A DNA stretch of 64,000 nucleotides from an uncultured Alphaproteobacteria bacterium (GTDB taxonomy: Bacteria > Pseudomonadota > Alphaproteobacteria > HIMB59 > GCA-002718135). The stretch spans positions 31,675 to 95,674 of the forward strand of contig CACGDO010000008.1 in assembly GCA_902571865.1 (NCBI GenBank). Direction: 5' to 3'. Positions 2 through 22,908 of the stretch are shown in pieces. Both the position numbers and the translations under genes were made by a program. Numbering within the stretch: the stretch's first letter is position 1; the number at the start of each line of letters is the position of its first letter. The notes under the pieces were generated by a model, which did not search any database, was not told the DNA's origin, and worked only from the letters and a program-made list of their open reading frames with translations.

Positions 2-700
2 GGTGGTATTCATATATTTGGAACAGATAAGGCAGGAAAAGATTTATTTAGCAGAACCTTGAGCGCAATTTATATTTCACTAGCTGTAGGGACACTTGGT
101 GTTTTTATATCATTTGTACTATCCCTAATTATAGGTGGAATATCAGGTTACTATGGTGGATGGATTGATAGTGTATTGCAAATGTTTACTGATGCAATTC
201 GAACGGTTCCGCCAATACCTCTGTTTATGTGTCTTGCTGCCTTTGCGCCATTAGAATGGAGTTCTGAATTACGGTTCTTTTTTATTTCCTGTTTACTTGG
301 ATTAATTTCATGGCCAACACTTGCTAGAAGAGTAAGAACGCATCTACTTAGTGAAAGAAGCCAAGAATATATTCTTGCTGCAAAACTTTGTGGAGCATCA
401 TCTACTCACATTATTATAAGACACTTGTTACCAAGTTTCACGAGCTATATTATTGTCGATTTAGTCATTAGTTTCCCATACATGTTATTATCTGAAACAG
501 CTTTAAGTTTTATAGGACTTGGTTTGAGAGAACCAGTAAACTCTCTAGGTGTACTTTTACAAAATGCAACAAAGGCCGACGTACTTTTAAACTATCAATG
601 GTATTTTATCCCTGTATTTTTCTTAGTCGTATTAATTTTAACATTTGTCTATGTGGGGGATGGATTACGTGATGCAGCTGATCCTCATAAGGTAAAATAA
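2..700 (+). CDS. ABC transporter permease, DppC/OppC type (5' truncated by window edge)
   Basis: Open reading frame continues upstream of the listed 59 start: GGIHIFGTDKAGKDLFSRTLSAIYI..., with the conserved 'FGTDxxGxDLFSR' of DppC-type permeases; hydrophobic segments. Confidence 0.9.
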   Translation, partial: GGIHIFGTDKAGKDLFSRTLSAIYISLAVGTLGVFISFVLSLIIGGISGYYGGWIDSVLQMFTDAIRTVPPIPLFMCLAAFAPLEWSSELRFFFISCLLGLISWPTLARRVRTHLLSERSQEYILAAKLCGASSTHIIIRHLLPSFTSYIIVDLVISFPYMLLSETALSFIGLGLREPVNSLGVLLQNATKADVLLNYQWYFIPVFFLVVLILTFVYVGDGLRDAADPHKVK

Positions 701-701
701 T

Positions 702-1691
702 ATGAGTCATTTATTAGAAGTAAAAAATTTAGATGTAAAATTTGATACTGATGAAGGTAGAATTACTGCAGTTGAAAATATCTCTCTTTCTGTAGATCAA
801 GGTGAAGTACTTGGTATAGTTGGTGAATCCGGATCAGGTAAATCTGTGACTGCTAAATCGATTATGAAATTAAATCCAGGTAATACTTCTTATAATGAAG
901 ACGCAGAAATAATTTTAGACAACGAAAATGTTCTTCAATTTACCTCTAAGCAAGACTTAAAAAAAATAAGAGGTGGTAAAGTATCAATGATTTTTCAAGA
1001 GCCTATGGCAAGTTTTGCTCCAGCAATAAAAATTGGCGCACAAATGGTTGAGCAATTACTAATTCATAAAAATATTAATAAAGAGGAAGCAAAATCAATA
1101 TCCATAAACATGCTAAAAAGAGTAGGCATAGCAGATGCAGAAAAACGGTTTAATCAATATGCATTTGAATTATCTGGGGGAATGCGTCAAAGAGCAATGA
1201 TAGCTATGGCACTATCAACAATGCCTAAACTTTTATTAGCAGATGAGCCAACAACTGCTTTAGATGTAACAATTCAAGCTCAAGTAATTAACCTAATTAA
1301 AGATATTATTAAAGAATATCAAATGGGAGTAATATTTATTACTCACGATCTAGGTGTTATTGCACAGGTAGCTGATCATGTAGCGGTTATGTATTTGGGA
1401 AGTGTAGTGGAGAAAGGTCCAGTAAATGAGATCCTTAAAAACCCAAAACATCCTTATACAAAAGGGCTATTACAAGCTTTACCTGACATAAATAACTTAG
1501 ACGCACCGTTATCTCCAATACCTGGAAACATTCCAAGTCCATTAGATAGACCAACAGGGTGTGTATTTAGAACTAGATGCCCCCATCATAATCCAGAAGG
1601 AAAAGATGGTAAAATAGAAATGAAATTAATTGAAGTTGAACCAGGTCACTGGGTTGATCAATGTGGAATTAAGTGTGGTCAAAATGGGTGA
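702..1691 (+). CDS. Opp/Dpp-type ABC transporter ATP-binding protein (DppD-like)
   Basis: Walker A GESGSGKS, LSGGMRQR signature, LLADEPTTALD, oligopeptide C-terminal motif CVFRTRCPHH. Confidence 0.93.
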   Translation: MSHLLEVKNLDVKFDTDEGRITAVENISLSVDQGEVLGIVGESGSGKSVTAKSIMKLNPGNTSYNEDAEIILDNENVLQFTSKQDLKKIRGGKVSMIFQEPMASFAPAIKIGAQMVEQLLIHKNINKEEAKSISINMLKRVGIADAEKRFNQYAFELSGGMRQRAMIAMALSTMPKLLLADEPTTALDVTIQAQVINLIKDIIKEYQMGVIFITHDLGVIAQVADHVAVMYLGSVVEKGPVNEILKNPKHPYTKGLLQALPDINNLDAPLSPIPGNIPSPLDRPTGCVFRTRCPHHNPEGKDGKIEMKLIEVEPGHWVDQCGIKCGQNG

Positions 1692-2670
1692 TAATTTAAT
1701 TTCAGTAAATAATGTTTCAGTAAATTTTGATTATCAAGAAAATTTTATTTCAAAAAAACAAAAAATACATGCTGTAAACAATATCAATATCAAAATTAAA
1801 AAAGGATCTTTTTTTGGTTTAGTTGGTGAATCTGGTTCAGGAAAAACTACTCTTGGTAGAGCAATACTTGGAGCTAATAAAATTAGTTCTGGAAATGTTA
1901 TTTTTCATGACGATGAAAAAGATTATGATTTAACAGATATGAACAAACAAGATTTAAAAGAATATAGAAAAAAAGCTCAATTAATTTTTCAAGATCCTTA
2001 TGCTGCTTTAAGTCCAAGAATGACAGTGAGGGATATTATTGCAGAGCCTTTAGAAGTGATGAAAATAACAAACTCAAGACAAGAAACTGATGAAAGAGTA
2101 AGAGACATTGCTTCAAAATGTAGATTAAATATTGAGCATTTAAGAAGATTTCCTCATGCATTTTCTGGAGGACAAAGACAAAGAATATCAATTGCAAGAG
2201 CCTTAGTAAGTAATCCAAAATTTATAGTAGCAGACGAAAGTGTTGCTGCTTTAGATGTATCAATACAAGCAGATATATTAAATCTTTTAAAACAACTTCA
2301 AACCGAGCTTAACTTAACTTATTTATTCATAAGTCATGATTTAAGTGTAGTAGCTCATGTATGTGATGTTGTTGCAGTTATGTATTTGGGGCACATAGTT
2401 GAAATGGGACCCTCAAGAGAATTATTTAAGAATCCAAAACATTCTTACACAAAGGCACTATTATCTTCTATTCCATCAATTGATCCAGAGAAAAGATCTG
2501 AAGCTATAGAACTAAAGGGAGAAATTCCTAGTGCATTAAATCCACCTCCAGGTTGTGTGTTTAGAACCAGATGTCCTAATCCTGGAGTAGATTGCAAAGG
2601 TGGAGAAATAAAAATGGGCCTTATTGAAGTTGAACCAGGTCACTGGGTCGATCAGTGTTGTGCTCTATAA
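1684..2670 (+). CDS. Opp/Dpp-type ABC transporter ATP-binding protein (DppF-like)
   Basis: Walker A GESGSGKT, FSGGQRQR, C-terminal CVFRTRCP; likely start is ATG 1684 (MGDNLISVNN), not 1630. Confidence 0.92.
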   Translation: MGDNLISVNNVSVNFDYQENFISKKQKIHAVNNINIKIKKGSFFGLVGESGSGKTTLGRAILGANKISSGNVIFHDDEKDYDLTDMNKQDLKEYRKKAQLIFQDPYAALSPRMTVRDIIAEPLEVMKITNSRQETDERVRDIASKCRLNIEHLRRFPHAFSGGQRQRISIARALVSNPKFIVADESVAALDVSIQADILNLLKQLQTELNLTYLFISHDLSVVAHVCDVVAVMYLGHIVEMGPSRELFKNPKHSYTKALLSSIPSIDPEKRSEAIELKGEIPSALNPPPGCVFRTRCPNPGVDCKGGEIKMGLIEVEPGHWVDQCCAL

Positions 2671-4766: not shown

Positions 4767-5666
4767 ATGAAAAATAATTTATTATTAGCTGTTATATTAT
4801 CACTCTCAGGTTTGTTTTTATTGGATTGTATGGGGATTGCGATAAAGTTTTTACGAAACGAATATCCAGCAGCTCAACTTTCTGTTTTTAGAAATTTATT
4901 TGGAATGATCCCATGTGTTATTGCTTTATATTTTTCACATGATTGGCATCAAAATGGTAGAAAAATAAAAATAACGCAATGGAAGTTAGGATTATTCCGC
5001 GGAGTATTTGTAGCATTGGCTCAATTATGTCTCTATACTTCTTATGCTTACTTACCTTTTGCTTTAGTCGCTACCATGGAATACACTGGACCCATGATGG
5101 TCACCCTTCTTGCGATTCCTTTATTAGGTGAAAAATTTGGTTGGTACAAAATGAGTGCAGTAATTTCTGGTTTTGCAGGTATCGTTTTAATTATGCAACC
5201 TTGGTCATCAGACTTTAATTATATGTTACTACTTCCTATACTCGCTGCTTTTGGATATTCATTAGCAAGGGTAACATCCTTAAGTTTTGAGGATCATGTT
5301 CCTTCACCACTTATCAATTTGTATGGTCAAACAGGGACAATCATAGTTGCATGTATGTTAGTAGTGTTTTTTGGTATGTGGGAAAATTTCAAAAGTATAA
5401 ATGATTTCTTAGTAGTTTGTGTAATGGGGATTGCAGGAGGATCTGGAACTTTACTTTTAATATATGGTGCTAGAAAAGCAGAACTTAGTAAAATTATGCC
5501 ATTTGATTATATCGAGATATTTTTTGCACTTATTTTAGGTTGGATATTTTTTGCAGAATGGCCAGTTGATCAACTCTTCCCAGGTGCTTTTTTCATAGTT
5601 TTAGGTGGATTAATCATTTATCTTCAACAAAGAAAAAATAATTTTCAAAGATTAAGGAAAACATAA
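4767..5666 (+). CDS. EamA/DMT-family transporter
   Basis: About 10 hydrophobic segments, EamA-like repeats (FRNLFGMIPC..., LGEKFGWYKMSAVISGFAGIVLI). Confidence 0.85.
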   Translation: MKNNLLLAVILSLSGLFLLDCMGIAIKFLRNEYPAAQLSVFRNLFGMIPCVIALYFSHDWHQNGRKIKITQWKLGLFRGVFVALAQLCLYTSYAYLPFALVATMEYTGPMMVTLLAIPLLGEKFGWYKMSAVISGFAGIVLIMQPWSSDFNYMLLLPILAAFGYSLARVTSLSFEDHVPSPLINLYGQTGTIIVACMLVVFFGMWENFKSINDFLVVCVMGIAGGSGTLLLIYGARKAELSKIMPFDYIEIFFALILGWIFFAEWPVDQLFPGAFFIVLGGLIIYLQQRKNNFQRLRKT

Positions 5667-6718
5667 TGGAATATAAAATTACCAAACTTCAAAATGATAA
5701 AGGTTTAGATATTGACATAGTTAATATTATTAACTCAAACAATTATAGTTTTAGTTTTTATACTTATGGTGGTTATATGAGTGAAATTTGTATTCCAATT
5801 TCTTCGAATGTTTCTGAAACAGAGGATGTTTTATTAGGTTATGGTAATTTAGATGATTGCCTGGAAGCTCATGGATATTTCAATTCAATTATCGGAAGAG
5901 TTTGTAATAGAATAGGGCAAAGTAAATTTACTCTTAATGGGAAAGAATATAATTTATATTCCAATACTGAACCTGATCATCTTCATGGTGGAGAGGTAGG
6001 TTTCAATAAAAAGATTTGGAAAATAGCCGATATTAAAAAAACAAGCCAAAGTATAAAAGTAGAGCTCACTTACCAGTCTAAACATTTAGAAGAAAATTAT
6101 CCAGGCAACCTAAATTGTAAAACTATTTACGAACTTAATAATAATAACGAAATTCTAATTTCCTTTAATGCTACTACAGATCAAGATACTATTGTTAATA
6201 TGACTAATCATAACTATTGGAATTTCCATGGCCATAAAGATAATTATAAAAATATTACTGACCATGTTGTAAGAATATCATCTAATCAAATTTGCGAAAC
6301 TGATGAGGGATCAATTCCTACTGGTAAATTATTCGATGTAGTTAATACAAAATATGATCTTAATAATTCATTTGAAATAAATAAATCTTTTTTAGATGGC
6401 GGTGGTATTGATCACAATTATGTTCTCAAGGATTATTCTATTGATCAATCTATAGCTTCCATCTACAGTAATATTACTGGTATGGGAGTTGAATACTCGA
6501 CTGATCAACCTGGAATACAATTTTATACTGGTAATATGATGAAAGATTCATATCATGGCAAACATAATCGAAATTATGGATTACAATATGGTATGTGTCT
6601 CGAGACGCAAATTTTTCCAGATGCTATTAATCAACCAAATTTTCCATCAACTATATTAAAAGTAGGCGAAACATATAATTCAAATACAAAAATAAAATTA
6701 AGAAATGATTTTAAATAA
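5666..6718 (+). CDS. aldose 1-epimerase (GalM-like)
   Basis: NRIGQSKFTLNGKEYNL, DHLHGG, MTNHNYWNFHG, GIQFYTGN: GalM motifs. Confidence 0.88.
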   Translation: MEYKITKLQNDKGLDIDIVNIINSNNYSFSFYTYGGYMSEICIPISSNVSETEDVLLGYGNLDDCLEAHGYFNSIIGRVCNRIGQSKFTLNGKEYNLYSNTEPDHLHGGEVGFNKKIWKIADIKKTSQSIKVELTYQSKHLEENYPGNLNCKTIYELNNNNEILISFNATTDQDTIVNMTNHNYWNFHGHKDNYKNITDHVVRISSNQICETDEGSIPTGKLFDVVNTKYDLNNSFEINKSFLDGGGIDHNYVLKDYSIDQSIASIYSNITGMGVEYSTDQPGIQFYTGNMMKDSYHGKHNRNYGLQYGMCLETQIFPDAINQPNFPSTILKVGETYNSNTKIKLRNDFK

Positions 6719-6764: not shown

Positions 6765-7265
6765 ATGAAAATCAGTAAAAAAATCATCGATAATTTAAAA
6801 AAAGGTGGAGTAGATTTTTACTTAAGTGTTCCTTGTAAGTTATTAGCCAACATGATTGATATTCTTGAAAATGATAAAGATGTTTATTATTCAGCTGTAC
6901 CAAGAGAGGAAGAAGGTATGGGTATTTGTGCTGGAGCTTATTTAGGAAATAAATTCCCATGTATAATGATGCAGAATACAGGGATTGGAAATTCAGTGAA
7001 TGCAATTGTTTCTCTATTACAATTATATCAAATGCCTGTTGTTTTTTTAATTAGTTACAGGGGTACACCTGGTGAGCCAGTAGGAGCACAAGGTGGAATG
7101 GCTAAAATAACTGAAGATATTTTACAAACTTTAAGAATACCTATGTTGCATTGTTCTTCAGAAAATGATCTTGAGAAAATTTCAACATTTAGCAAACATG
7201 CCAAAGTTGTTGAATCACCAGTAGCTATTTTATGTGATTTCAATTTAATGAAAGATGATAAATGA
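6765..7265 (+). CDS. comD: sulfopyruvate decarboxylase alpha subunit-like (ComD), ThDP-binding
   Basis: 'VPREEEGMGICAGAYLGNKFPCIMMQNTGIGNSVNAI' and 'SYRGTPGEPVGAQGGM' match the ComD / phosphonopyruvate decarboxylase pattern as I know it. Confidence 0.8.
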   Translation: MKISKKIIDNLKKGGVDFYLSVPCKLLANMIDILENDKDVYYSAVPREEEGMGICAGAYLGNKFPCIMMQNTGIGNSVNAIVSLLQLYQMPVVFLISYRGTPGEPVGAQGGMAKITEDILQTLRIPMLHCSSENDLEKISTFSKHAKVVESPVAILCDFNLMKDDK

Positions 7266-7831
7266 ACCGTTTTGACTTATTAAATAAAATACAAAAAATT
7301 CTTAAAGAGAACCTAGTTATTTGTAATATAGGTCTTCCGTCTCAAGAATTATATAAAATTAGTGATCAACCAAATTTTTTTTATATGTTAGGCAGTATGG
7401 GCTTATCATCTTCTATTGGCTTAGGCTTGGCACTATCCCAAAATAAACACGTTATTAGTATAGATGGTGATGGGTCTGTTTTAATGAATATGAATACACT
7501 AGCAACAATTGGAAATAGAGCACCATCAAATTATACTTTATTAATAATTGATAATGGATCATATGGATCAACAGGAGATCAAAGGACTTTTACTGATGAA
7601 AATACTTCTTTAAAAGATGTTGCAATAGGCGCTGGTTGTAACAATGTAGTTGAATGTTCTGGAGATGAAACAGTAAATGAATTATCAAAGGCTATTGAAG
7701 ATCAAAATAATTCTTACGTAATTATCTCTAAAATTAATTCTGGAAATGTCAAAATTGATCCAATTCCTCTCAACCCTATAACGATCAGAGATAGATTTAG
7801 AAAGTTTATAGGTATAGTTAAATACCTCTAA
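7262..7831 (+). CDS. comE: sulfopyruvate decarboxylase beta subunit-like (ComE), ThDP-binding
   Basis: 'FYMLGSMGLSSSIGLGLAL' and the ThDP motif 'IDGDGSVLMNMNTLATIGN...DNGSYGSTGDQ'; ATGA overlap with the preceding gene. Confidence 0.8.
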   Translation: MNRFDLLNKIQKILKENLVICNIGLPSQELYKISDQPNFFYMLGSMGLSSSIGLGLALSQNKHVISIDGDGSVLMNMNTLATIGNRAPSNYTLLIIDNGSYGSTGDQRTFTDENTSLKDVAIGAGCNNVVECSGDETVNELSKAIEDQNNSYVIISKINSGNVKIDPIPLNPITIRDRFRKFIGIVKYL

Positions 7832-7841
7832 ATAAATATTT

Positions 7842-8747
7842 ATGATCATTTGTGCAGGATCAATATTTTTAGATAATATTAGTAGGATAGATCAGTTTCC
7901 AAAAAAACCAATTAAAGTTTTATCTAAAGGTATTGATAAAAGGTTAGGTGGTTCAGCAGCAGTATCAGCATTTACTGCTAAAAAATTAGGTTGTGAAACT
8001 AAATTTATTGGAAAATTTGGAGATGATGATGCTTCTGTTTTCTTAAAAAATGAATTTAAAAAATTTTCAATTAATATCAATAAATCTATTTCAATAAAAA
8101 AATGTAAATCCTCACAAAGTTTTGTAATTGAAGATTTAAATGGTGAAAGATTGCTAGCTGCTTATAATGACCCAAAGTTACTTAATTATAAGAAAATACC
8201 AAATTTAGATTTTAGAAAAAAAGATATTTATGCAGTAGATATGAGGTGGATTAGAATAGCGACTGAAATTGCCAGAAAGACTAACAAAAATAATATTAAA
8301 TGTGTTGCAGATTTAGATAATTTTAAAAAAACATCACGTATATCACAAATTGTTAAAAATGCTTCCCATCCCATATTTTCTGAAGAGGGTTTAAAAACAT
8401 ATAAGCGAAATTCAAATATGAAAACTGCTCTTTTTGAAATATTTAATGAAACACAAAAATTTGTAGCGGTTACATTAGGCTCCCAAGGCGTTCTTTGGGT
8501 AGATAACAATTCATTGTATCACTGTAAAATTCCAAAAGTTAAAACAGTTGAAACAAATTGTGCAGGAGATGTATTTCATGGAGCTTTCGCATCAGCCTTA
8601 TCTCTAAATAAATCAAATATAGAAAGTATTATTTTTGCATCTGCCACTGCAACTTTAAAATGTATGCAAAGTGGGGGTATATATTCAATACCTAAAATTA
8701 GTTTAGTTAATAAATTTTCAAAAAAAATAAAAATTAGTAAAATTTAA
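7842..8747 (+). CDS. PfkB-family sugar kinase, resembling sulfofructose kinase YihV
   Basis: PfkB fold (LGGSAAVSAFTAKKLG, NCAGDVFHGAF); 'KSSQS...NGER', 'DMRW', 'FSEEGL', 'LKC...GG..IP' parallel remembered E. coli YihV motifs. Confidence 0.75.
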   Translation: MIICAGSIFLDNISRIDQFPKKPIKVLSKGIDKRLGGSAAVSAFTAKKLGCETKFIGKFGDDDASVFLKNEFKKFSININKSISIKKCKSSQSFVIEDLNGERLLAAYNDPKLLNYKKIPNLDFRKKDIYAVDMRWIRIATEIARKTNKNNIKCVADLDNFKKTSRISQIVKNASHPIFSEEGLKTYKRNSNMKTALFEIFNETQKFVAVTLGSQGVLWVDNNSLYHCKIPKVKTVETNCAGDVFHGAFASALSLNKSNIESIIFASATATLKCMQSGGIYSIPKISLVNKFSKKIKISKI

Positions 8748-9670
8748 TGATAAATATTTTAATTACAGAATTTATAGATCCAGAAGCATTAAAAATATTA
8801 AGTAAAGATTTTAATGTAATCTATAAAAAAGATATTTGGGAAAATTCTGATTATTTAAAAAAAGAAATTAATAAATTTGATGGAATAATTGTAAGAAATA
8901 AAACAAATTTAAATCAATCTATTTTAGAGAAAGCAGCAAATTTAAAGTACATTGGTAGACTTGGTGTAGGTCTAGATAATATTGACACTGAATACTGTAA
9001 AAAAAATAATATATTTGTTCAACCAGCCACTGGGATGAATGCTGACTCTGTAGCAGAATATGTAATAAGCTCTTCACTTAGCCTATTAAAGAAAACAAAG
9101 CAAATAAATGAAAAAACACAAAGTGGGCAATGGCCTAGAACGTCAATTACTACGAATGAGTTAAGGGGAAAAATTTTAGGTCTAATAGGATTTGGTGATA
9201 TAGCAAAAAAAGTTTTAAAACTTATAAATGCATTTGAAGTTACTACTATTGCATTTGACCCTTTTATAACCTCTCAAGAAATGGAAGAACATAATGTTAA
9301 AAAAGTAACTTTTGAAAATATTCTTTCTTTAGCTGATATAATTTCTATACATGTACCGTTAAATAATGAAACGAAATATTTATTTGATAAAAAAATATTT
9401 CAAAAAATGAATAACAAACCAATTATAATTAATTCATCAAGAGGAGGAATTATAAACGAAATAGATCTACTTGAAGCATATAAGAATAATTATGTTTCAG
9501 GATTTGCATTAGATGTTTATGAACATGAGCCAGTAAACAAAATATTTTTAAAAAATATTACAAACGATATGAATTGTATTTTATCACCTCATATTGCAGG
9601 GGTTACAGAAGAATCCAATACTAGAGTAAGTGAGTTTATTATGAATAAAACAAACGAATTTTTTTCATAA
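8747..9670 (+). CDS. D-isomer-specific 2-hydroxyacid dehydrogenase (PGDH-like; resembles (S)-sulfolactate dehydrogenase SlcC)
   Basis: IGRLGVGLDNID, ILGLIGFGDIAKKV, NSSRGGIINE, ALDVYEHEP, LSPHIAG. Confidence 0.85.
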   Translation: MINILITEFIDPEALKILSKDFNVIYKKDIWENSDYLKKEINKFDGIIVRNKTNLNQSILEKAANLKYIGRLGVGLDNIDTEYCKKNNIFVQPATGMNADSVAEYVISSSLSLLKKTKQINEKTQSGQWPRTSITTNELRGKILGLIGFGDIAKKVLKLINAFEVTTIAFDPFITSQEMEEHNVKKVTFENILSLADIISIHVPLNNETKYLFDKKIFQKMNNKPIIINSSRGGIINEIDLLEAYKNNYVSGFALDVYEHEPVNKIFLKNITNDMNCILSPHIAGVTEESNTRVSEFIMNKTNEFFS

Positions 9671-9673
9671 TTT

Positions 9674-10762
9674 TTAAATTTTAAATTCATCCATTTTAAC
9701 AATTCTATTTTCTTTTATAGAAATTTCAGCAGCTTCACCAATTGCAACTGCTTGTAAACCATCATTTAGACTTACAGCAGCTGGTTTAGAATTTTCAATA
9801 GAATCGAGAAATGAAATATGCTCATAATATGTAGAGCCATGATGATTTCCTACTTTTAAAATCTCTTCATCTACTTCCACAATCTCATCAAGAGTTTTTC
9901 CATTTTTTCGATATCCAATCCTTAATTCAGACGAGTTTTTGCCTGAGCTAGCTGAAGGTACAGCGGTTTCAATTTTACCGATATCTCCAACTGCACATAA
10001 CTCTTCTTGATTTGTTGAGTTTTCAGCAAACATACAGAGATCAAGCAAAGCTCTAACTCCATTTTGAAAATCAACAATTACATAAGCATTATCGAGAATA
10101 TCTGGAGTTTTATTATTATATTTTTCGTTTAAATGATTAACATCTTGGTTGCCACTTGCATAAACTTGTTTTGCTTCACTTTTTACAATTAATCTCATTA
10201 GATCAAAAAAATGACAGCATTTTTCAACTAATGTGCCTCCTGTATTTTCTGCAAATCTATTCCAGTTATTCACCTTAACTAAAAAAGGAAATCGGTGTTC
10301 TCTAATTGATAACATTTTTAAATTACCTATTGTTTTATTATGAATTTCATCAATCATTCTCTTTACTGGCGGCATATATCTATATTCCATTGCTGTCCAA
10401 ATTAAACCTGGATAATTTTTAGTTAAATCTCTGAATTCAATACAATCTTTAATTGTTGTACATAACGGCTTTTCTACTAAGATATGTTTCTTTGTCTTAA
10501 TTACATCTTTTAATACATCTATGTGTGTAAAATTAGGAGTAGAGATTATGTACCCATCAACAAGATCAGCTTGTATCATTTCATTATAGTTTGTAAAACA
10601 TGGAACTTTTTTATTAAGTAACGATAAAGATTGATTAATTGATTCATCATTTGGATCACTTAAAGCAACAATTTCTGCTCTATCAATTATATTGACATTT
10701 CTGACATGTTCGCGTCCCATTGATCCAGCACCTATTATCCCATATTTAAAACTTTTACTCAT
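9674..10762 (-). CDS. Gfo/Idh/MocA family oxidoreductase
   Basis: GIIGAGSMGREHVRN, KKHILVEKPLC, GTLVEKCCHFFDLMR. Confidence 0.88.
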   Translation of the reverse strand: MSKSFKYGIIGAGSMGREHVRNVNIIDRAEIVALSDPNDESINQSLSLLNKKVPCFTNYNEMIQADLVDGYIISTPNFTHIDVLKDVIKTKKHILVEKPLCTTIKDCIEFRDLTKNYPGLIWTAMEYRYMPPVKRMIDEIHNKTIGNLKMLSIREHRFPFLVKVNNWNRFAENTGGTLVEKCCHFFDLMRLIVKSEAKQVYASGNQDVNHLNEKYNNKTPDILDNAYVIVDFQNGVRALLDLCMFAENSTNQEELCAVGDIGKIETAVPSASSGKNSSELRIGYRKNGKTLDEIVEVDEEILKVGNHHGSTYYEHISFLDSIENSKPAAVSLNDGLQAVAIGEAAEISIKENRIVKMDEFKI

Positions 10763-12126
10763 ACTGTGTATGTTGGAATTTTCATCTGATTACCTAGATT
10801 AACAATTTCGTTATAATAGTCACCGTAAGTAAAAGCAACGTGATGTTCAAGCCCACCTTTAAACATTTTTTCTATTTTATTTTTTGTATTTTTGCCAAAA
10901 CTTACTACACCTGAAGTTCCAGCAAATGAATTTTTCCTATTGATCACTTTTCCCTTAAGTACAAAAAATTTTAATTTACTTGCTGATTTTGAAACTCTGA
11001 ATATTGTTATATTTCCTGGTTTAAAAGCAAAATTATGAAGTAGCGGTTTTTTTCTATTAGAATGTATATCCGCTCTTGCATCACCTTTTTTAGACATGCT
11101 TAGAGGGGCTAACCCACAATGCCAAAAAACAACAGAATTATCTTTTTCATCTATATCGACAATATCCACTAATAAAGAAGGTTGATTGTTTAGTTGGTTT
11201 AGTATGTTGCAACTTATTCCTCCTAAAACGTCTGCTTCGCAAGCACTGCTAATTTTCTTTTCATTCATCATAGCCATAGGACCACAAGAAGCACAACCAA
11301 ATTCTGTAAACATTTCTGGCCAGCATCTAACTGCAAATGCTTGAACGTCGTGTTTTGTGTGAAGTGTATTTAATCCATGGTATATTGAAATACTTTTTTT
11401 TAATTCTTGTTGATTTAATTTTTTTGAATTCTTCAAATCTTTCTCAATTTTTATTTGTGTTGAATTTAAAATTGGTTTTTTAATTTTCTTAGCTTCTGAA
11501 AATAATTCATTTAATTTTATTTTTTTAATATCAAAATTTAATTTTTTCCTGATTTCCAATAATGAATAATCACATGTATCAAAACCTTCAGGTCTTTCAC
11601 CAACAAGTCCAATTTTTTGCCTCTTTATATCTATTTTTTTATTACTTTTTTTTCTAATCTGCTTCCATTCAATTATTTTATTAATATAAATTTTTTTATT
11701 AATAAATTTTTTAATTCTTTTTTCTAAGTCTTTTTGATTATTATATAATATGAATTCAGCATTAATATTATTTTTAATTAATGAGTGCATTCCTAAATTT
11801 AATCCACATACTGAATTAAGTCTTAATCTCTTTCCAGTTCGCGGCTCTGGAAAGGCAACGATACATATTGGTTTATTTATCTTTTTGGCAAAATGTAATA
11901 AAAATTTTGCATCTGTAAATGTAGTTTGAAAAATTATAATTTTTTTAAAATTATTATCTTTAAAATATTTAAATGCTTTTTCTGATAATTCATTATTAGT
12001 AACTAAATAATTAATTCCTCTTATTTCAGTAAATATATTTCGAAGAACTTTTTTACCTTCTAAAAATTTAGACATAGCAAAAGGCACATCAAAAGTTTCT
12101 CGTGCTAATCCTAGGTATCCAATCAT
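10759..12126 (-). CDS. L-fucose/L-arabinose isomerase-like protein (COG2407-type)
   Basis: 'AVRCWPEMFTEFGCASCGPMAMMNE...SACEADVLGGIS...DIVDID...FWHCGLAP' is the FucI-related sugar isomerase C-terminal pattern; ATGA overlap with the downstream gene. Confidence 0.72.
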   Translation of the reverse strand: MIGYLGLARETFDVPFAMSKFLEGKKVLRNIFTEIRGINYLVTNNELSEKAFKYFKDNNFKKIIIFQTTFTDAKFLLHFAKKINKPICIVAFPEPRTGKRLRLNSVCGLNLGMHSLIKNNINAEFILYNNQKDLEKRIKKFINKKIYINKIIEWKQIRKKSNKKIDIKRQKIGLVGERPEGFDTCDYSLLEIRKKLNFDIKKIKLNELFSEAKKIKKPILNSTQIKIEKDLKNSKKLNQQELKKSISIYHGLNTLHTKHDVQAFAVRCWPEMFTEFGCASCGPMAMMNEKKISSACEADVLGGISCNILNQLNNQPSLLVDIVDIDEKDNSVVFWHCGLAPLSMSKKGDARADIHSNRKKPLLHNFAFKPGNITIFRVSKSASKLKFFVLKGKVINRKNSFAGTSGVVSFGKNTKNKIEKMFKGGLEHHVAFTYGDYYNEIVNLGNQMKIPTYTV

Positions 12127-12293
12127 TATTATTTCAATTATAGTTAATAATTTTCTCTCAAACCATGAAAATTAAAAAATTCAAAGATTAATTATATAAA
12201 TAAACACTAATTTTCTTATAAATTGTATTAATTTTTTTTTGAATTCGTATGGGTTCATGTTATCAATATTATATTAAATTATATGGAGGAATT

Positions 12294-13544
12294 ATGAAAA
12301 AAATATTTGCTATTTTTCTTCTTCTTACTTCAACATCATTTGCTGTAACTTCAGCAGAATTGAAGTTCATATGTTATCAAGATATTAATGAATGTGATAC
12401 TATTGCAGACATGGCTAAATCATGGGAAGCTTCTTCTGGACATACGTTAAATATTGAAACAGTTGGATATGAAGTAATAAGAGAGCAGTTAGAAAATCAA
12501 TTAGAATCAGGTGCTGCACCAGATTTAGCTAGAGTAACCAATTTAGGTGGATTAAATAAATTTTATTTAGATTTAAAACCTTATATTGATGCTACATATT
12601 GGGAACAGAATTATGGTGCAACTCTTCCTTGGTATAGAAAACCTTCTGGTGATGATGGTATCTATGGATGGCAAACTCAATTAACTGTTACTGGTCCTTA
12701 TGTTAATGTAACAATGTTTGAGGATGCTGGCGTTGACATGCCTGAAGAGGGTGCTACATGGGATGATTGGGCCGATGCTTTAAGAGAAGTTAAATCTGAA
12801 CTTGGATTAACAGCAGGACTTGCACTTGATAGAACTGCACATAGATGGGCTGGACCAGCCTTTTCTTATGGTGCAAAATTTCATGAAAATGGAACTCCAA
12901 TTCTAGTTGATGAAGGTTTTAGAAAATTTTCAGAAGTTTTTGTTGGATGGCATGAAGAAGGATTAATGCCAGCTGAAGGTTGGCCAGCTGGTGCTGGAAC
13001 CTCATACAGAAATGCAGCTCCTTTATTTTTAGATGGAACTGTTGCAATGCATATGTCTGGTTCATGGATGCTTGGAAACTATGATACTAACATTACAGAT
13101 TTTGAGTGGAAAGTTGTACCAATACCATGTGGTCCTGGTGGATGTGGAGCTATGCCTGGAGGTTCAGGAATAGTAGCATTTAATTCTACTGCAAATCCTG
13201 AAGCAGCTGCTTCATTTATTAATTTTATGGCGCAAACTGAAAATGCAGAAAAATTCGCTGCATCAACAAGTAATATCACTGCTCATCAAGGACTTCAAAA
13301 ATCAGGTATAGATTACACTGGTGTAAGTCCTAATGTTGCAGAAGGTCTTGCAATTTTTGCTGCAAATGCAGGAAAAGCTGCTGACACAACTCCTCAAGCA
13401 TATTGGTTCCAAGGTTACAATAAAAACTTTGCAATTTATGGAATTGTACCTGACTACATAACTAAAGCAATAACAGGAGAAATGTCTCTTGAAGAAGCTT
13501 TAGCAGCAATTGATGCTGATGTAGCTGCAAAAATAGCTGAGTAA
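12294..13544 (+). CDS. extracellular sugar-binding protein (CUT1 ABC transporter)
   Basis: Signal peptide MKKIFAIFLLLTSTSFAVTSA; SBP family 1 features; GGAGGA Shine-Dalgarno at 12285-12290; start moved from 12249. Confidence 0.92.
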   Translation: MKKIFAIFLLLTSTSFAVTSAELKFICYQDINECDTIADMAKSWEASSGHTLNIETVGYEVIREQLENQLESGAAPDLARVTNLGGLNKFYLDLKPYIDATYWEQNYGATLPWYRKPSGDDGIYGWQTQLTVTGPYVNVTMFEDAGVDMPEEGATWDDWADALREVKSELGLTAGLALDRTAHRWAGPAFSYGAKFHENGTPILVDEGFRKFSEVFVGWHEEGLMPAEGWPAGAGTSYRNAAPLFLDGTVAMHMSGSWMLGNYDTNITDFEWKVVPIPCGPGGCGAMPGGSGIVAFNSTANPEAAASFINFMAQTENAEKFAASTSNITAHQGLQKSGIDYTGVSPNVAEGLAIFAANAGKAADTTPQAYWFQGYNKNFAIYGIVPDYITKAITGEMSLEEALAAIDADVAAKIAE

Positions 13545-13559
13545 ATAATTATTAATTTA

Positions 13560-13586
13560 TTAAGGCCGATCAAAAATCGGCCTTAA
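13560..13586 (+). promoter_or_regulatory. intercistronic perfect hairpin between SBP and permease genes (no T-tract)
   Basis: TTAAGGCCGAT-CAAAA-ATCGGCCTTAA: 11-bp perfect stem, 5-nt loop, followed by A-run. Confidence 0.8.
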
Positions 13587-13591
13587 AAAAA

Positions 13592-14650
13592 ATGATGCCT
13601 GAAAATTTTTTAAATCTTAATTATTGGTATTTTATTACATTTATTTATTTGTTTGTTGGGTTTCTATTTTCAAGAGGTGTAATAGGTAGTGTAACAAGAT
13701 TAATGTCGATAGTAGGCTGGCCGATTGAATTAGCTCAAAGGTTAAGTGGTACAAAAAGTTTACCTTATTTATTTTTATTTCCAAATATTTTAATTTTTGG
13801 ACTATTTACTTTTTTGCCTTTGTTTATGAATTTTGGTTTTTCTGTTACGGATGGAGAAAGTATAAACTTTTCATCAAGGGATTACTCTGGTTCTGATAAT
13901 CTATCAAGAATTGTTTTAGAAAAACAAATAGATACTGGCGTTGAAAATATGGAGGATGATAAGTTTAAAGCTGCAATAGCGGATACTTTTATCTTTGTAC
14001 TATTTCAAGTTCCTATAATGATCCTCATAGCTTTAATAACTGCAATTGTTCTTAACAGAGAGATTGTTGGAAGAGCTTTTTGGCGAGCAGTTTATTTTTA
14101 TCCTGTTATGCTAAGCCCAGTTGTAGTTGCTTTTCTCTGGACGTTAATACTCAAAAGGCAGGGATTGTTATCACAGACACTAATGAGTTGGAATTGGATT
14201 GATGAACCAATACAATGGTTAACAGATCCGTCATGGACAATGTTTTGGTCAGTTCTAATTTATACTTGGGCCAATTTAGGTTTTTATATGTTGATTTTAT
14301 TAGCTGGTCTACAATCAATACCAAAAGATCTTTATGAAGCTGCAGAAATGGATGGTACATCAGATCAGAGAGTCTTTTGGAGAATCACCTTACCACTCTT
14401 AATGCCAATTCTTCTTGTAGTAACAGTCTTATCTTTGATTAAGGCTTTTCAAGCATTTGAAGAATTATTTGCTCTTCAAGTTGGATGGATATCATTAGTT
14501 TCTTATATTTTTGAAACAGCAGGTCTAAGAGGACAAAAAACAACTTTTGGTTTAGGTATTGCTGCAATGGCATCATTATTAGTTGCATTATTATTAATAC
14601 TTTTATCACTTCTTCAGTTTTATTTAACGAGACGACAAGTCAAGTTATGA
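13592..14650 (+). CDS. sugar ABC transporter permease (CUT1)
   Basis: LFLFPNILIFGLFTFLPL; EAA-loop 'DLYEAAEMDGTSDQRVFWRITLPLLMP'. Confidence 0.92.
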   Translation: MMPENFLNLNYWYFITFIYLFVGFLFSRGVIGSVTRLMSIVGWPIELAQRLSGTKSLPYLFLFPNILIFGLFTFLPLFMNFGFSVTDGESINFSSRDYSGSDNLSRIVLEKQIDTGVENMEDDKFKAAIADTFIFVLFQVPIMILIALITAIVLNREIVGRAFWRAVYFYPVMLSPVVVAFLWTLILKRQGLLSQTLMSWNWIDEPIQWLTDPSWTMFWSVLIYTWANLGFYMLILLAGLQSIPKDLYEAAEMDGTSDQRVFWRITLPLLMPILLVVTVLSLIKAFQAFEELFALQVGWISLVSYIFETAGLRGQKTTFGLGIAAMASLLVALLLILLSLLQFYLTRRQVKL

Positions 14651-16086
14651 GTGCTGTTTTAAAATTTCTTTCACGCACTCAAGGTAAAAATGGACCTGCT
14701 TTGGTTGATTGGATTTCTTATATCTATCTTCTTTTAGGTTTTTTGATAATATTTTTACCAGTCTTATGGCTGTTACTAAACTCTATTAAATCTCAATTTC
14801 TTCTTCAAAAACTAGATACTAATATACTACCACTTGATTATGATAGAGTCGTGCGAGCTACTGTTTTTGGCCCGGAAGGAAAAGAAATTTTTATTATGAA
14901 AGATATGCCAGAATGGGTTATTTATTGGAACGAGCTTCGTGATGAAGATAAAAAAAATGAAAATAATCCAAATGAATTTATTTCTAATTATGAAGGAAAA
15001 GAATATTATGCGTTAAGAACTCATCTAGGGTTGGTCTCTGACCATGCTAAAAAACTAATTAAGCAAAAAAATTTACCTGAATGGCTTATAAAATATCCGA
15101 GTATGTTTCCAGATGCGAAAAAAGAATACGACCCTCAAGAATTTTTAACTAATTTAAATGAAGAAGAAATTCGACTTATGTCTGAATTTCTAGGTATTAA
15201 ACCTTATAAGCCAAATGGATTTACATCACAAATTTTAATATCTGCAATTAATCCTGAAACAAATAAACTTGAAGAATATTCTGTGAGTCGATTAAATAAT
15301 AATAAAGACACAGTAAATGCAAGATTAATTTCTAATCCCCAAGGAGGAATTGTTAAACTTCAAACGCAAGATATAATAGTTAACAAAAAACTTCGTCCTT
15401 CATGGATTAATTATTCTGATCCCTTAACAAACAATGTTAGAGGTATGAGTTTTGATGCCGTCAAATGTCTTAGTAACTCTCTTTTTGTTACTATAGTTGC
15501 AACAATTATAACAGTTTTGATAAATTCAATGGCAGCATTTGCATTATCAAAATACAAATTTAATGGTCAAATAATTTTCTTCATAATTATTTTGGCGACT
15601 CTAATGGTTCCAGCTTCAGTATTAATAGTTGGTATATTTAAAATGGTTTCTATGACAGGATTAAATGGATCTTTGTGGGGAGTTATTATACCTGGTGCTG
15701 CTACACCTACAGGTGTTTTTATGCTTAGACAATATATGCTAACAATTCCAGATGAGCTTTTAGAAGCTGCAAGAATGGATGCAGCAAGTGAATGGAGTAT
15801 TTATTGGAAAATTGTTTTTCCTCTTGCTCTTCCTGCTATTGCTGTTCTAGGTATACTCTCAATTATTTGGAGATGGAACGATTTAATTCTGCCAATGATC
15901 GCAGTATCGACTACAAAAACTGCTTACACTATCCAGCTTTGTTTACTTGATTTTCAAGGTGAATATGTTGCTCAAGAACACTATAGACTAGCTATGACTG
16001 TTGTCAGTTTAATACCTACAACTTTGGTATTTGTATTTTTACAAAGATACATAACCACTGGAATTGCAAACACGGGAATTAAATAA
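14647..16086 (+). CDS. sugar ABC transporter permease (CUT1) with large extra domain after TM1
   Basis: EAA-loop 'ELLEAARMDAASEWSIYWKIVFPLALP'; ~220-aa hydrophilic insert after the first TM helix. Confidence 0.92.
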   Translation: MSAVLKFLSRTQGKNGPALVDWISYIYLLLGFLIIFLPVLWLLLNSIKSQFLLQKLDTNILPLDYDRVVRATVFGPEGKEIFIMKDMPEWVIYWNELRDEDKKNENNPNEFISNYEGKEYYALRTHLGLVSDHAKKLIKQKNLPEWLIKYPSMFPDAKKEYDPQEFLTNLNEEEIRLMSEFLGIKPYKPNGFTSQILISAINPETNKLEEYSVSRLNNNKDTVNARLISNPQGGIVKLQTQDIIVNKKLRPSWINYSDPLTNNVRGMSFDAVKCLSNSLFVTIVATIITVLINSMAAFALSKYKFNGQIIFFIIILATLMVPASVLIVGIFKMVSMTGLNGSLWGVIIPGAATPTGVFMLRQYMLTIPDELLEAARMDAASEWSIYWKIVFPLALPAIAVLGILSIIWRWNDLILPMIAVSTTKTAYTIQLCLLDFQGEYVAQEHYRLAMTVVSLIPTTLVFVFLQRYITTGIANTGIK

Positions 16087-16088
16087 TT

Positions 16089-17111
16089 ATGGCTACACTT
16101 GAAATAAAAAAAGTAAGAAAAAATTACGGAACCTTAGAAGTAATTCACGGTATTGATCTTTTCATTAACAATGGAGAATTTTGTGTTTTAGTTGGCCCAT
16201 CAGGTTGTGGTAAATCAACATTATTAAGAATGATAGCTGGACTTGAACAGATTACAAAAGGAGATATTTTGATTGATAATCAAGTTGTAAATAATATTTC
16301 TGCAGCAAGAAGAGGTTTAGCAATGGTTTTTCAATCATATGCTTTATATCCTCATATGAGTGTTAGACAAAATTTAGCTTTTGGACTGGAAAATTTAAAA
16401 ATGAAAATTGAAGAAATTGATAGACGTATTTTGGAAGCTGCAAGACTTCTTAGAATGGAGGAATACTTACAAAGAAAACCTGGCCAATTATCCGGTGGAC
16501 AAAAACAACGAGTTGCAATTGGGAGAGCAATAGTAAGAGAACCATCAATATACTTATTTGATGAACCACTTTCTAATTTAGATGCTGAACTTAGAGTTGC
16601 AACACGAGTTGAATTAAAGGCATTACATGCAAGGTTAGGTAATACTATGATTTATGTAACTCATGATCAAGTAGAAGCAATGACAATGGCTGATAAAATC
16701 GTAGTAATGAATGATGGTATTATTGAGCAAGTTGGAGCACCTTTAGAATTATACAACAAACCATCTAATAAATTTGTAGCTGGTTTTATTGGGTCACCAA
16801 AAATGAATTTTATACAATTTGACTATCTTCCAAATTCGTTAAAAGAAAAGGCACCGCCTAACTCAATAAGTCTTGGAATAAGACCTGAGCATCTATCAAT
16901 TAAAGATGAAAACTCGTTATTGCTAAATGTAGAAACAGTTGAGCAATTAGGTTCTGATAGTTTTTTGTATGGAACAACCTCAGGAGAACAAAAAATTTCA
17001 ATAAAACTAAATTATCAAACTGATATTCAGGCCAATCAATCAATTAAGGTTGGGTTTAAACTAGATGATGCTCATTGGTTTGATAAAGATGGTATTGCTC
17101 TAACATCTTGA
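16089..17111 (+). CDS. sugar ABC transporter ATP-binding protein (MalK/UgpC type)
   Basis: GPSGCGKST, LSGGQKQRVAIGRAI, YLFDEPLSNLDAELR, GIRPEHL. Confidence 0.95.
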   Translation: MATLEIKKVRKNYGTLEVIHGIDLFINNGEFCVLVGPSGCGKSTLLRMIAGLEQITKGDILIDNQVVNNISAARRGLAMVFQSYALYPHMSVRQNLAFGLENLKMKIEEIDRRILEAARLLRMEEYLQRKPGQLSGGQKQRVAIGRAIVREPSIYLFDEPLSNLDAELRVATRVELKALHARLGNTMIYVTHDQVEAMTMADKIVVMNDGIIEQVGAPLELYNKPSNKFVAGFIGSPKMNFIQFDYLPNSLKEKAPPNSISLGIRPEHLSIKDENSLLLNVETVEQLGSDSFLYGTTSGEQKISIKLNYQTDIQANQSIKVGFKLDDAHWFDKDGIALTS

Positions 17112-19489
17112 AAAAATTTGATAAAATTTTAAGCTGTAAAGTTTTCAAAAAAAAAGTCTTATTTAATTTAGAGTATAATTGGGGATTTTATATTTCAATA
17201 TCAAATGATAATATTCTTAACTTTGAATTATTTGATAAAAAAAATAAAAATGTTTTACCAAAAATAATTAATGAAAAAAATTATATTTACAAAAATATAA
17301 ATGTCTCAAAATATAAAAATTATTATGTAATTAAATTACAACTTACAAAAATAAAGGTTTATAATAATCCTTTTCGAATAACAGTTTACAGAAAAATTAA
17401 AAATAAATGGCAAGAAATCTGCTCTGATAGAGAAACTGGTTCATGGTATTGTAATGAAGAAAAAAATGAGATAACTCATTATCAAAATAGATATTCTTAT
17501 AATAATATTTATGGTCTTGGTGAAAAAACTGGTAATTTAGAAAAATCATACAGAAGATATGTATTATCTCAAAAAGATGCACTGGGTTATAATGGAGAAA
17601 AGAGCGATCCCCTCTATAAATCTTTTCCTTGGTTATACATAATAAATAAAAATAATAGAAATTGTGATTATGGACTTTTATATAATACTTTAGGTTATGG
17701 TGTTGTTGATTTAGGAAGTGAACATTCAAATTATCATCATCCTTATAGATACGCAAATTTCCAAAATAACGGAATTCAACTTTTTATATTTTTAAATAAC
17801 AAACAATCTATTATTTCTTCTCTTAATAATTTTATTGGTCCAAGATATTTTCCACCAAAATGGAGTTTAGGTTTTCAATTTTCTTCTATGGAAATTGCTG
17901 ATGATGAAAATTCACAAAAATTGTACTTAGAATTTTTAAATAAATGTAACGAATTAAAAATTCCATTAAGTAGTTTGCACTTTGGCTCCGGATATACTTT
18001 GCATGGCAAGAAAAGATATATGTTTAAATGGAATAAAAAAAAATTTCCTGAACCAAAATTATTTTTAGATAAAATTAAACAATACGGTATACATCTTACT
18101 GCTAATTTAAAACCAGCAATATTAACTTCACATCCGTTTTATAAAAAAGCAGTAAAAAAGAATATTTTCATATCAGATAATAATAATAAACCTCTTGTAA
18201 TTCAATTTTGGGATGAAACTGCGAGTATAATTGATTTTACTAAAAAAACGGGAGCCACTTGGTGGAAAAAATATGTTACAAAATACATATTATCAAATGG
18301 TTTTGATACAATTTGGAATGACAACAATGAATATGATCTTGAAGACAAAGATGCTTATTCATTATATTTAAATAAAAAAGTTAAAACAAATTCATTGCTA
18401 CCGTTACAAGCTATCTTAATGTCTAAGGCTAGCTCTCAAGCTACAAGAAACTACTATCCAAGAATAAGAAATCATGGAGTTACCAGATCTGGCACATTAG
18501 GAATTCAACGTTATGTAGAAACATGGACAGGTGATAATGATACATCTTGGCATTCATTAAAGTGGAGTGCATCTATAGGGTTAGGCCTCTCCTTGTCTGG
18601 AATTGGATTTTTTGGACATGATATAGGTGGATTTACTGGAAAAAAAACTTCTAGAGATTTAATGATACGTTCTCTTCAATTTATGTTGTTTCACCCTAGG
18701 TTTCATATGAATTCATGGAAACCAAATAACAAAAAAAAATATAAAAATAAGAATATAATTAATCTAAATAATACTAATTTGCCGTGGCTTTATAATGATA
18801 CTACTCCAACGGTTACAAAATTAATTCAATTACGATATCAACTTCTACCAATTCTTTATTCAGCAATATGGCGTTTTTATAAAGAAGGTGAACCAGTAAT
18901 AAGGCCATTATTTTTAGATTTTCCAGAAAATGAACATTTTGAACAAGAAGAAGTTTTTTCTATAAATGAAAGAGTTATTGTAGCACCTGTTTTAGAAAAA
19001 AATAGAAATAGAGTAAAAGTTTTCCTTCCTTTTTGTAGAGAAGGTTGGTTTGATTATTTTAATTTAAAATTAATTTCTAATGGTGGATGGGTAAGTATAA
19101 GTGCACCAATTAATAAACTGCCAATAATTATCAGAGGTGGTACAGTTATACCTAAATTAAAAATAAATTTTTATGAGCCTCATTTAGCTCCAATAAAAGA
19201 AATAGTAGTTTTTCCTTCTTTAACTGATATTTCTTTTAAGCAAGAAAATTCACCATTAATATTCGATGATGGACATACTATGGATTATGAAATTAAAAAA
19301 AATTTGATCTTAACACCATTAATTAAATTTAAAAAAAATAAACTTTCACTATCATTTTCTTTAGAAGGAAAAGGAAAAATGCAAAAAGAAAAAATTATAT
19401 TAAAGTATCCTAGTTACTGTGATTTAATTCTAAAAAATTGCCTGAATTACTTTATAAAAAAATCTTATATCTATAAAATCTATAAATAA
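17108..19489 (+). CDS. glycoside hydrolase family 31 protein (alpha-glycosidase), no signal peptide
   Basis: GH31 nucleophile region 'GFDTIWNDNNEYDLED', 'RYVETWTGDNDTSWHSLKWS', 'GHDIGGFTG'; TTG start overlapping the ATPase stop. Confidence 0.85.
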   Translation: MKKFDKILSCKVFKKKVLFNLEYNWGFYISISNDNILNFELFDKKNKNVLPKIINEKNYIYKNINVSKYKNYYVIKLQLTKIKVYNNPFRITVYRKIKNKWQEICSDRETGSWYCNEEKNEITHYQNRYSYNNIYGLGEKTGNLEKSYRRYVLSQKDALGYNGEKSDPLYKSFPWLYIINKNNRNCDYGLLYNTLGYGVVDLGSEHSNYHHPYRYANFQNNGIQLFIFLNNKQSIISSLNNFIGPRYFPPKWSLGFQFSSMEIADDENSQKLYLEFLNKCNELKIPLSSLHFGSGYTLHGKKRYMFKWNKKKFPEPKLFLDKIKQYGIHLTANLKPAILTSHPFYKKAVKKNIFISDNNNKPLVIQFWDETASIIDFTKKTGATWWKKYVTKYILSNGFDTIWNDNNEYDLEDKDAYSLYLNKKVKTNSLLPLQAILMSKASSQATRNYYPRIRNHGVTRSGTLGIQRYVETWTGDNDTSWHSLKWSASIGLGLSLSGIGFFGHDIGGFTGKKTSRDLMIRSLQFMLFHPRFHMNSWKPNNKKKYKNKNIINLNNTNLPWLYNDTTPTVTKLIQLRYQLLPILYSAIWRFYKEGEPVIRPLFLDFPENEHFEQEEVFSINERVIVAPVLEKNRNRVKVFLPFCREGWFDYFNLKLISNGGWVSISAPINKLPIIIRGGTVIPKLKINFYEPHLAPIKEIVVFPSLTDISFKQENSPLIFDDGHTMDYEIKKNLILTPLIKFKKNKLSLSFSLEGKGKMQKEKIILKYPSYCDLILKNCLNYFIKKSYIYKIYK

Positions 19490-19494
19490 TTTAT

Positions 19495-20697
19495 ATGAAA
19501 AATTTAAAACAAACTATTACAGAAATTATTAATGGAACTGAAATATTTGATATCCATACTCATCTATTCCCTGCTGCATTTAAAAAATATCATCTTTCAG
19601 GTATAAGTGAAGTTTTAAACTATCATTATTTAATTGCAGAATTACTTACAACAACAAATATAAATGTAAAAAATTTTTACAAACTAACAAAGATAGAAAA
19701 AGCAAACATAATTTGGGAAGAATTATTTAAAAAAAGAACTCCTATTTCCGAAGCTTGTAAGGGTGTGCTAACAATTTTATCAGAATTATCAATTGATTAT
19801 ATGTTTAAGTCATTTGATGAAATTAACACTGAATATTCCAAATTAAATTTATCTGATTTACAAATATTTAAAATCATTAAAATTTCTAAAATTGTAATGA
19901 CTAACAACCCATTTGATAAATCTGAATGGCAATTATTTAAAAATAAAAATTGGGATACTAATAAATATCTAGCTTCACTTCGATTAGATGACATACTTAT
20001 AAATTTAGATAAATGTTTAGATATTTGTAAAGAAAATATTAACAATTTTGATAATGATAACGATTTAATAATTAAGTATTTAGATAAAGTATATGAAGAA
20101 TCTAAACCGGTATACGCTGCATTATCCTTAAATGGTTTACAATTAAATTCTTTTTTAAAAAATAAGTTTATTCCAGATATTTTGAAATGGCTTGAAAGAA
20201 AAAATATTCCATTATCCTTATTAATAGGTGTGAGAAGAAATGTTAATAAAGATTTTTTACTTGCCGGAGATGGTATAGACAGAATTGATTTACGTCATTT
20301 AAGTGAAATATGTAATCAATATTCAAATAATAAAATACTTTGCTCATGCTTATCTTTTAATGATCAACATGAATTGACGGTATTAGCAAGAAAACATCAG
20401 AACCTTAAAATATTTGGCTTTTGGTGGTTTATGAATCAACCTAGTTTAATAAAACTAATTTTAAATTTAAGAATTGAATTATTGGGATTAAATTTTATTC
20501 CACAGCACTCCGACGCAAGAGTGACAGATCAATTACTTTATAAATGGCCTCATTTTAAAGCATTATTAAGCAAAGTTTTATACAATCATTATAACGATAT
20601 TAAGCTAAAAAATTTTAAAATTTCTGAAAATCAAATTAGTGATGATGTATCAAAACTCTTTTATATAAATAGTAAAAATTTTCTAAATTTAAGTTAA
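19495..20697 (+). CDS. uxaC: glucuronate isomerase (UxaC)-like
   Basis: 'EIFDIHTHLFP', 'LKIFGFWWFMNQPSLI', 'LLGLNFIPQHSDARVTDQLLYKWPHFK': uronate isomerase pattern, somewhat short (400 aa); next to uxuB/uxuA. Confidence 0.75.
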   Translation: MKNLKQTITEIINGTEIFDIHTHLFPAAFKKYHLSGISEVLNYHYLIAELLTTTNINVKNFYKLTKIEKANIIWEELFKKRTPISEACKGVLTILSELSIDYMFKSFDEINTEYSKLNLSDLQIFKIIKISKIVMTNNPFDKSEWQLFKNKNWDTNKYLASLRLDDILINLDKCLDICKENINNFDNDNDLIIKYLDKVYEESKPVYAALSLNGLQLNSFLKNKFIPDILKWLERKNIPLSLLIGVRRNVNKDFLLAGDGIDRIDLRHLSEICNQYSNNKILCSCLSFNDQHELTVLARKHQNLKIFGFWWFMNQPSLIKLILNLRIELLGLNFIPQHSDARVTDQLLYKWPHFKALLSKVLYNHYNDIKLKNFKISENQISDDVSKLFYINSKNFLNLS

Positions 20698-22907: not shown

Positions 22908-22908
22908 G

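Follow-up and report, generated by a model that had tools for sequence, protein, structure and literature searches.

Does the PfkB-family kinase encoded in this window (the whole stretch of 64,000 nucleotides that was analysed) act on a sulfonated sugar and, if so, what becomes of the product? Its reading frame is open and specifies 301 amino acids, and all of the motifs quoted in a preliminary description of the DNA (KSSQSFVIEDLNGER, DMRW, HPIFSEEGL, CAGDVFHGAF and LKCMQSGGIYSIP) lie within that translation; the strings that the same description had remembered from the E. coli kinase YihV agreed with the YihV chain on alignment (yihV taken from MG1655). In a search of all solved structures, the top match was YihV (7ag6, E 4e-42, 34% identity), followed by 2rbc, a 'sugar kinase' with no stated substrate and presumably from Agrobacterium (1.5e-25), and, below these, by ribokinases (3e-18) and then ketohexokinases (2e-11). 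A best match to a ketohexokinase or KDG kinase had been named as a finding that would speak against a sulfofructose-kinase-like enzyme; the search returned YihV instead.

Lys27, Asn109 and Arg138 of YihV are the residues which we take to be its sulfonate contacts. The lysine, the arginine and the catalytic Asp244 correspond to K25, R135 and D243 of the window kinase and are invariant in 21 orthologues, so that the retention of Lys and Arg proposed earlier is borne out; the second PfkB kinase of the window, described as lacking sulfofructose-kinase-like motifs, indeed has neither residue. The GDVFHGA and LKC motifs are likewise shared with YihV, as is the presence of adjoining sulfosugar genes, although the isomerase beside YihV is of the YihS type and the one by the window kinase is of the SftI type. 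The two kinases differ further in that Asn109 is replaced by alanine (A107 in the window kinase, Ala in 21/21 orthologues), that Arg34-Leu35 stands in place of the Val-Gly of YihV in all orthologues, and that the window kinase and its orthologues form a long separate branch. Asn109 is retained in the kinases of E. coli, Citrobacter, Photobacterium and Zymomonas. Because the Lys and Arg pair also occurs in 2rbc and in the kinases of Rhizobium, Cereibacter, Shinella and Neorhizobium (those of the first three being YihV-type kinases with no known sulfosugar link), and because Asn109 is replaced, the motifs by themselves are not diagnostic; what they mark is a YihV-type subfamily, not a substrate. 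With the asparagine gone and its status as a defining residue uncertain, we call the gene sulfofructose-kinase-like. AlphaFold models were poor (mean pLDDT 44 for the kinase and 35 for the isomerase) and were set aside.

Support for the sulfofructose-kinase-like reading comes mainly from the gene neighbourhood, which the preliminary description had left unused (Table 1). Four closely packed genes form the order ComD-ComE-kinase-hydroxyacid dehydrogenase, the kinase thus coming third in the run; ComD and ComE overlap, the kinase starts 10 bases past ComE, and the start of the dehydrogenase overlaps the kinase stop by one base. The mutarotase gene precedes ComD, and the GH188 gene faces the run from the opposite strand. 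Promoter and terminator scans gave a signal no better than shuffle level.

Table 1. Positions in the window of the kinase gene, its neighbours and the flanking transport genes
Feature	Position	Strand	Basis
Oligopeptide-type ABC transporter, end of an operon starting upstream of the window; common neighbour	59..2670	+	
DMT-family permease, common neighbour; putative sulfite/sulfonate exporter	4767..5666	+	family from sequence
Aldose 1-epimerase, putative sulfoquinovose mutarotase	5666..6718	+	Pfam Aldose_epim; 33% to Zymomonas cluster mutarotase
ComD-like, sulfopyruvate decarboxylase alpha subunit	6765..7265	+	TIGR03845 161.1 bits, cut-off 147.95
ComE-like, sulfopyruvate decarboxylase beta subunit	7262..7831	+	TIGR03846 222.6 bits, cut-off 221.5
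PfkB kinase, YihV-type; putative 6-deoxy-6-sulfofructose kinase	7842..8747	+	best PDB match YihV; K25/R135/D243 kept
2-Hydroxyacid dehydrogenase, phosphoglycerate-dehydrogenase (PGDH) type; putative (S)-sulfolactate dehydrogenase (SlcC role)	8747..9670	+	Pfam 2-Hacid_dh; PGDH-like in PDB
GH188 NAD+-dependent sulfoquinovosidase (SqgA-like)	9674..10762	-	PDB 8qc3/8qc2, E 2e-109
SftI-type sulfoquinovose isomerase relative	10759..12126	-	NF048012 294 bits, E 2e-87; curated cut-off 700
Sugar ABC importer (binding protein, two permeases, ATPase); possible sulfoquinovoside uptake	12249..17111	+	generic sugar-binding-protein matches

The sulfonate-binding and catalytic positions of GH188 enzymes have been published (PMC10755693, PMC11465081). 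Among these, R166, L170, K172, K107, Y136, E189, H193 and H321 are all kept in 20 sequences, so that membership of GH188 is carried by the family match together with the sulfonate triad R166/L170/K172 and most of the catalytic residues, Glu163 not being placeable at its published number (PMC10755693). The isomerase is a fucose-isomerase-family protein whose sole NCBIfam match is SftI; since its score does not reach the curated cut-off (the Zymomonas homologue scores 288 bits), we name it only a relative of SftI.

Other candidates for the release of the sugar were rejected. The GH31 glycosidase at 17108-19489 was tried as a classical sulfoquinovosidase; Arg301, Trp304 and Tyr508 of YihQ, presumably functional residues of that sulfoquinovosidase, were not aligned with like residues, and its best match was another GH31 enzyme. 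The Gfo/Idh genes at 2689 and 3695, considered as GH188 members, do not carry its sulfonate motif, and fewer than half of the related loci contain them. The GH31 gene opens a stretch (17108-25135) that continues with UxaC-, UxuB- and UxuA-like genes and suggests hexuronate use. Beyond it lies an apparent L-fucose cluster (25240-36126) with an ABC importer, an aldo/keto reductase, an L-fuconate dehydratase-like gene, an amidohydrolase, a GH29 fucosidase, a KDG-kinase-like PfkB and KDPG-aldolase-like genes.

Neither an SFP aldolase nor an SLA reductase or dehydrogenase was found beside the kinase in the cluster of the window genome; this genome is 92% complete, and its assembly could lack such a gene, linked or unlinked. 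The hits obtained there for the DeoC/LacD family and for class II aldolases look like deoC, the housekeeping class II fructose-bisphosphate aldolase FbaA and a class II enzyme of an inositol operon, and a search of the genome for the adducin-type class II aldolase family showed it to be absent. Fructose 1,6-bisphosphate has its 6-sulfonate analogue in sulfofructose 1-phosphate, and the housekeeping aldolase could therefore act on the latter in this genome. The genome also has an unlinked GabD-like gene, which shares 46% identity with the Zymomonas SSADH. In the clusters of seven relatives, an aldolase of the LacD/YihT family adjoins the isomerase, scoring 323 against the cut-off of 184 for a tagatose-bisphosphate aldolase subfamily in NCBIfam and matching YihT in the PDB at E 4e-17. 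An eighth genome holds a 62% identical copy within a different sugar cluster, and the aldolase is therefore not exclusive to the sulfosugar pathway. Some relatives (L121:6133-12608, L125:3745-10221) carry a second, distant LacD-type aldolase; subunits of dihydroxyacetone kinase, an enolase-superfamily enzyme and a YihU-like reductase accompany it, and together these look like another sugar pathway.

The best score of this linked aldolase, which is with tagatose-bisphosphate aldolases, raises the question of whether the kinase might act on another sulfoketose, for example 6-sulfo-tagatose derived from sulfofucose, with the LacD-type aldolase of the relatives splitting the matching 1-phosphate. 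The substitutions of Asn109 by Ala and of Val-Gly by Arg34-Leu35 in all orthologues could be accommodated in the same way, and a published sulfofucose cluster contains a PfkB and LacD-family pair, both of whose proteins were uninduced there (PMC12421959). However, YihT and the LacD-type enzymes form one family, the window isomerase matches SftI, and the GH188 enzyme tested in the literature showed specificity for sulfoquinovosides over the other glycosides offered, its site being intact in the window; we consider another sulfoketose unlikely. Our preferred reading gives the window kinase sulfofructose as its substrate, within the breakdown of sulfoquinovose; it is probably correct, and it rests mainly on the neighbourhood: GH188, the SftI-like isomerase, ComDE, and a block kept in every locus compared.

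The kinase is present in 66 of 101 genomes of the same genus (mostly 55-90% complete), and none was found in other genera of the order. Named records among its relatives are single-cell genomes, including AG-337-I02 (79%); genus AG-337-I02 is assigned in the literature to order HIMB59, AEGEAN-169, and the same placement is probable for the window genome. The block mutarotase-ComD-ComE-kinase-dehydrogenase, facing GH188, is kept in 20/20 related loci compared, and the isomerase follows GH188 in these loci except where the contig ends; the DMT-family permease is found in most related loci. When the block is compared with one group of relatives (L048-L053; window positions 6900-12100), the transporter genes and ComD show a nucleotide identity of about 95%, whereas that of GH188 and the isomerase is about 65-75%, the drop beginning inside ComE and the kinase. 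This change along the block suggests that the sulfosugar front end was exchanged by recombination. Groups of relatives differ, too, in the ABC importer that follows the isomerase; the one in the window is divergently oriented from the isomerase, and relatives carry other ABC systems at that spot. In divergent relatives (L055:15133-19001, L056:68-2042), the isomerase and aldolase are followed by a sugar ABC system, a sulfatase and a sulfatase-modifying-factor-like gene, the sulfatase genes hinting that the substrate there is sulfated as well as sulfonated.

An independent set of similar genes was found in a plasmid collection. Plasmid pZZM402 of Zymomonas mobilis encodes an SftI-like isomerase, GH188, a YihV-type kinase and a mutarotase, all with counterparts in the window (identities of 33%, 49% and 32% for isomerase, GH188 and kinase, respectively), and, unlike the window, a linked class II aldolase and NAD-dependent SSADH together with MFS and TonB transport genes; ComDE is absent from the plasmid annotation. 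The set reads as a complete sulfo-EMP pathway that would end in sulfolactate, and it supports a sulfosugar role for the window kinase. A Photobacterium plasmid carries YihS, YihU, a class II aldolase and a YihV-type kinase, a hybrid arrangement known from Vibrio. The sulfo-EMP cluster of Arthrobacter shares GH188 SqgA and a sulfofructose kinase with the window and likewise has no GH31 sulfoquinovosidase, but it contains YihS, YihT and an SLA dehydrogenase, and its sulfolactate is excreted (PMC8873060, PMC10755693), whereas the window has an SftI-type isomerase and operon genes predicted to act on sulfolactate. Two actinobacterial clusters with Y160/Y158-type GH188 also hold a fucose-isomerase-family isomerase, an SF kinase and a D-3-phosphoglycerate dehydrogenase, and one of them, like the window, is without an SFP aldolase; they differ in having a sulfolactate sulfo-lyase and an SLA dehydrogenase (PMC11465081). 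In the window ComDE replaces the lyase, and GH188 is of the Leu170 type.

These comparisons bear on whether the enzyme is an ordinary YihV-type kinase for a non-sulfonated sugar, as 2rbc and many rhizobial homologues perhaps are, its sulfonate-gene neighbourhood being incidental. Such an enzyme could share the Lys/Arg pair with the 2rbc, Rhizobium and Cereibacter kinases and be just 34% identical to YihV, as is the case here; yet the tight operon with ComDE, the constant linkage in 20 loci to GH188 and, contig permitting, SftI, and the same partners in the independent Zymomonas cluster make this very improbable.

With a sulfofructose kinase remaining the preferred reading, the other genes of the run would deal with the C3 product. 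Both ComDE subunits exceed their curated cut-offs, the beta subunit narrowly. That the decarboxylase serves another acid such as phosphonopyruvate, the sulfosugar route stopping at exported sulfolactate or DHPS, might be thought from the closest PDB entry to ComE, a 'putative phosphonopyruvate decarboxylase beta subunit', and from beta scores which straddle the TIGR03846 cut-off across the genus, but we give this little credence, as the alpha subunit lies above its sulfopyruvate cut-off in all tested, ComD and ComE score far under the phosphonopyruvate decarboxylase cut-off, and a search of the genome for PEP mutase found none. The hydroxyacid dehydrogenase is one of six PGDH homologues in the genome and not the strongest, which makes it unlikely to be the sole SerA; its proposed role is that of SlcC on (S)-sulfolactate. 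Another PGDH homologue, L108 (G000:C1:121757-122677), contains one in-frame stop and is possibly a pseudogene or an assembly error. In published systems, the (S)-sulfolactaldehyde that sulfo-EMP produces is turned into (S)-sulfolactate, on which SlcC acts; SlcC and ComC are two dehydrogenases that jointly work as a racemase, with sulfopyruvate as the intermediate (PMC12421959, PMC11131964). Another paper names both ComDE and Xsc among the enzymes of sulfolactate breakdown (PMC12330013).

An xsc gene (952 bits, cut-off 676) lies on the same contig about 37 kb from the kinase, upstream of the window, along with a phosphate acetyltransferase-family gene, a class III aminotransferase and an alanine dehydrogenase, neighbours in keeping with a metabolism of acetyl phosphate and taurine. 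Also near xsc (L004:8202-15168, contig C8 upstream of the window), a MetE-like gene is grouped with genes for several SnoaL/NTF2-like proteins. Xsc is not enriched with the kinase (54/66 kinase-positive versus 27/35 kinase-negative genomes, Fisher p 0.61) and is a core gene common to the whole genus, for which reason its role in the sulfosugar pathway is no more than plausible, and Xsc may instead be there for taurine. The hydroxyacid dehydrogenase and ComDE, with Xsc on the same contig, recall the sulfolactate degradation of Chromohalobacter and roseobacters (SlcC/ComC, ComDE, Xsc); unlike there, the putative sulfolactate genes of the window share an operon with a sulfoquinovose front end.

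We thus envisage a sulfo-EMP-like pathway in which the kinase would phosphorylate 6-deoxy-6-sulfofructose and from which the C3 product would be processed onward in the same cell. A sulfoquinovosyl glycoside would be imported, probably through the sugar ABC system at 12249-17111, and sulfoquinovose freed from it by the GH188 enzyme; the mutarotase and the SftI-type isomerase would then yield sulfofructose, and the kinase would convert this with ATP to sulfofructose 1-phosphate. Cleavage to DHAP and (S)-sulfolactaldehyde would fall, in the seven relatives, probably to the linked LacD/YihT-type aldolase and, in the window genome, to an enzyme encoded away from the cluster, for which the class II fructose-bisphosphate aldolase is the likeliest candidate. 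The unlinked GabD-type dehydrogenase would produce (S)-sulfolactate and the operon dehydrogenase sulfopyruvate, from which ComDE would make sulfoacetaldehyde, and Xsc would release acetyl phosphate and sulfite. The family identities of the genes and their conserved linkage are observed; the catalysis and substrate of each step are predicted from them.

AEGEAN-169 bacteria are small, free-living and widespread in surface oceans. Their genome papers stress ordinary sugars (PMC10308909, PMC10734472), and in the AEGEAN-169 genome paper taurine goes unmentioned and the two words that start with 'sulf' are unrelated to sulfosugars. In the part of the literature covered, we found no published account of this clade with sulfoquinovose, or of ComDE with sulfoglycolysis, in such an arrangement; the combination that we read as most likely in HIMB59/AEGEAN-169, in which the front end of sulfo-EMP leads into a sulfolactate-sulfopyruvate-sulfoacetaldehyde-sulfite tail, is apparently undescribed. 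Whether plankton of this group possess a complete single-cell route from sulfoquinovoside to sulfite, with a GH188/SftI/YihV-type front, an SlcC/ComDE/Xsc tail and, in the window clade, a housekeeping aldolase, is a proposition to which we give an even chance.

Sulfoquinovose is the sulfur sugar of photosynthetic membranes, and the natural exchange of Asn109 for Ala makes the kinase a test case for sulfonate binding by sulfofructose kinases. Production of the sugar amounts to some 10 billion tons a year (PMC10755693). An SFP aldolase and an SLA enzyme are among the sulfo-EMP references that a 2026 aquatic survey applied at an identity of at least 30% (PMC13372026), and the cluster of the window may therefore have gone uncounted. 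If the proposed route holds, a streamlined planktonic group would be a consumer of sulfoquinovose, and AEGEAN-169 may itself release sulfite rather than excrete DHPS or sulfolactate.
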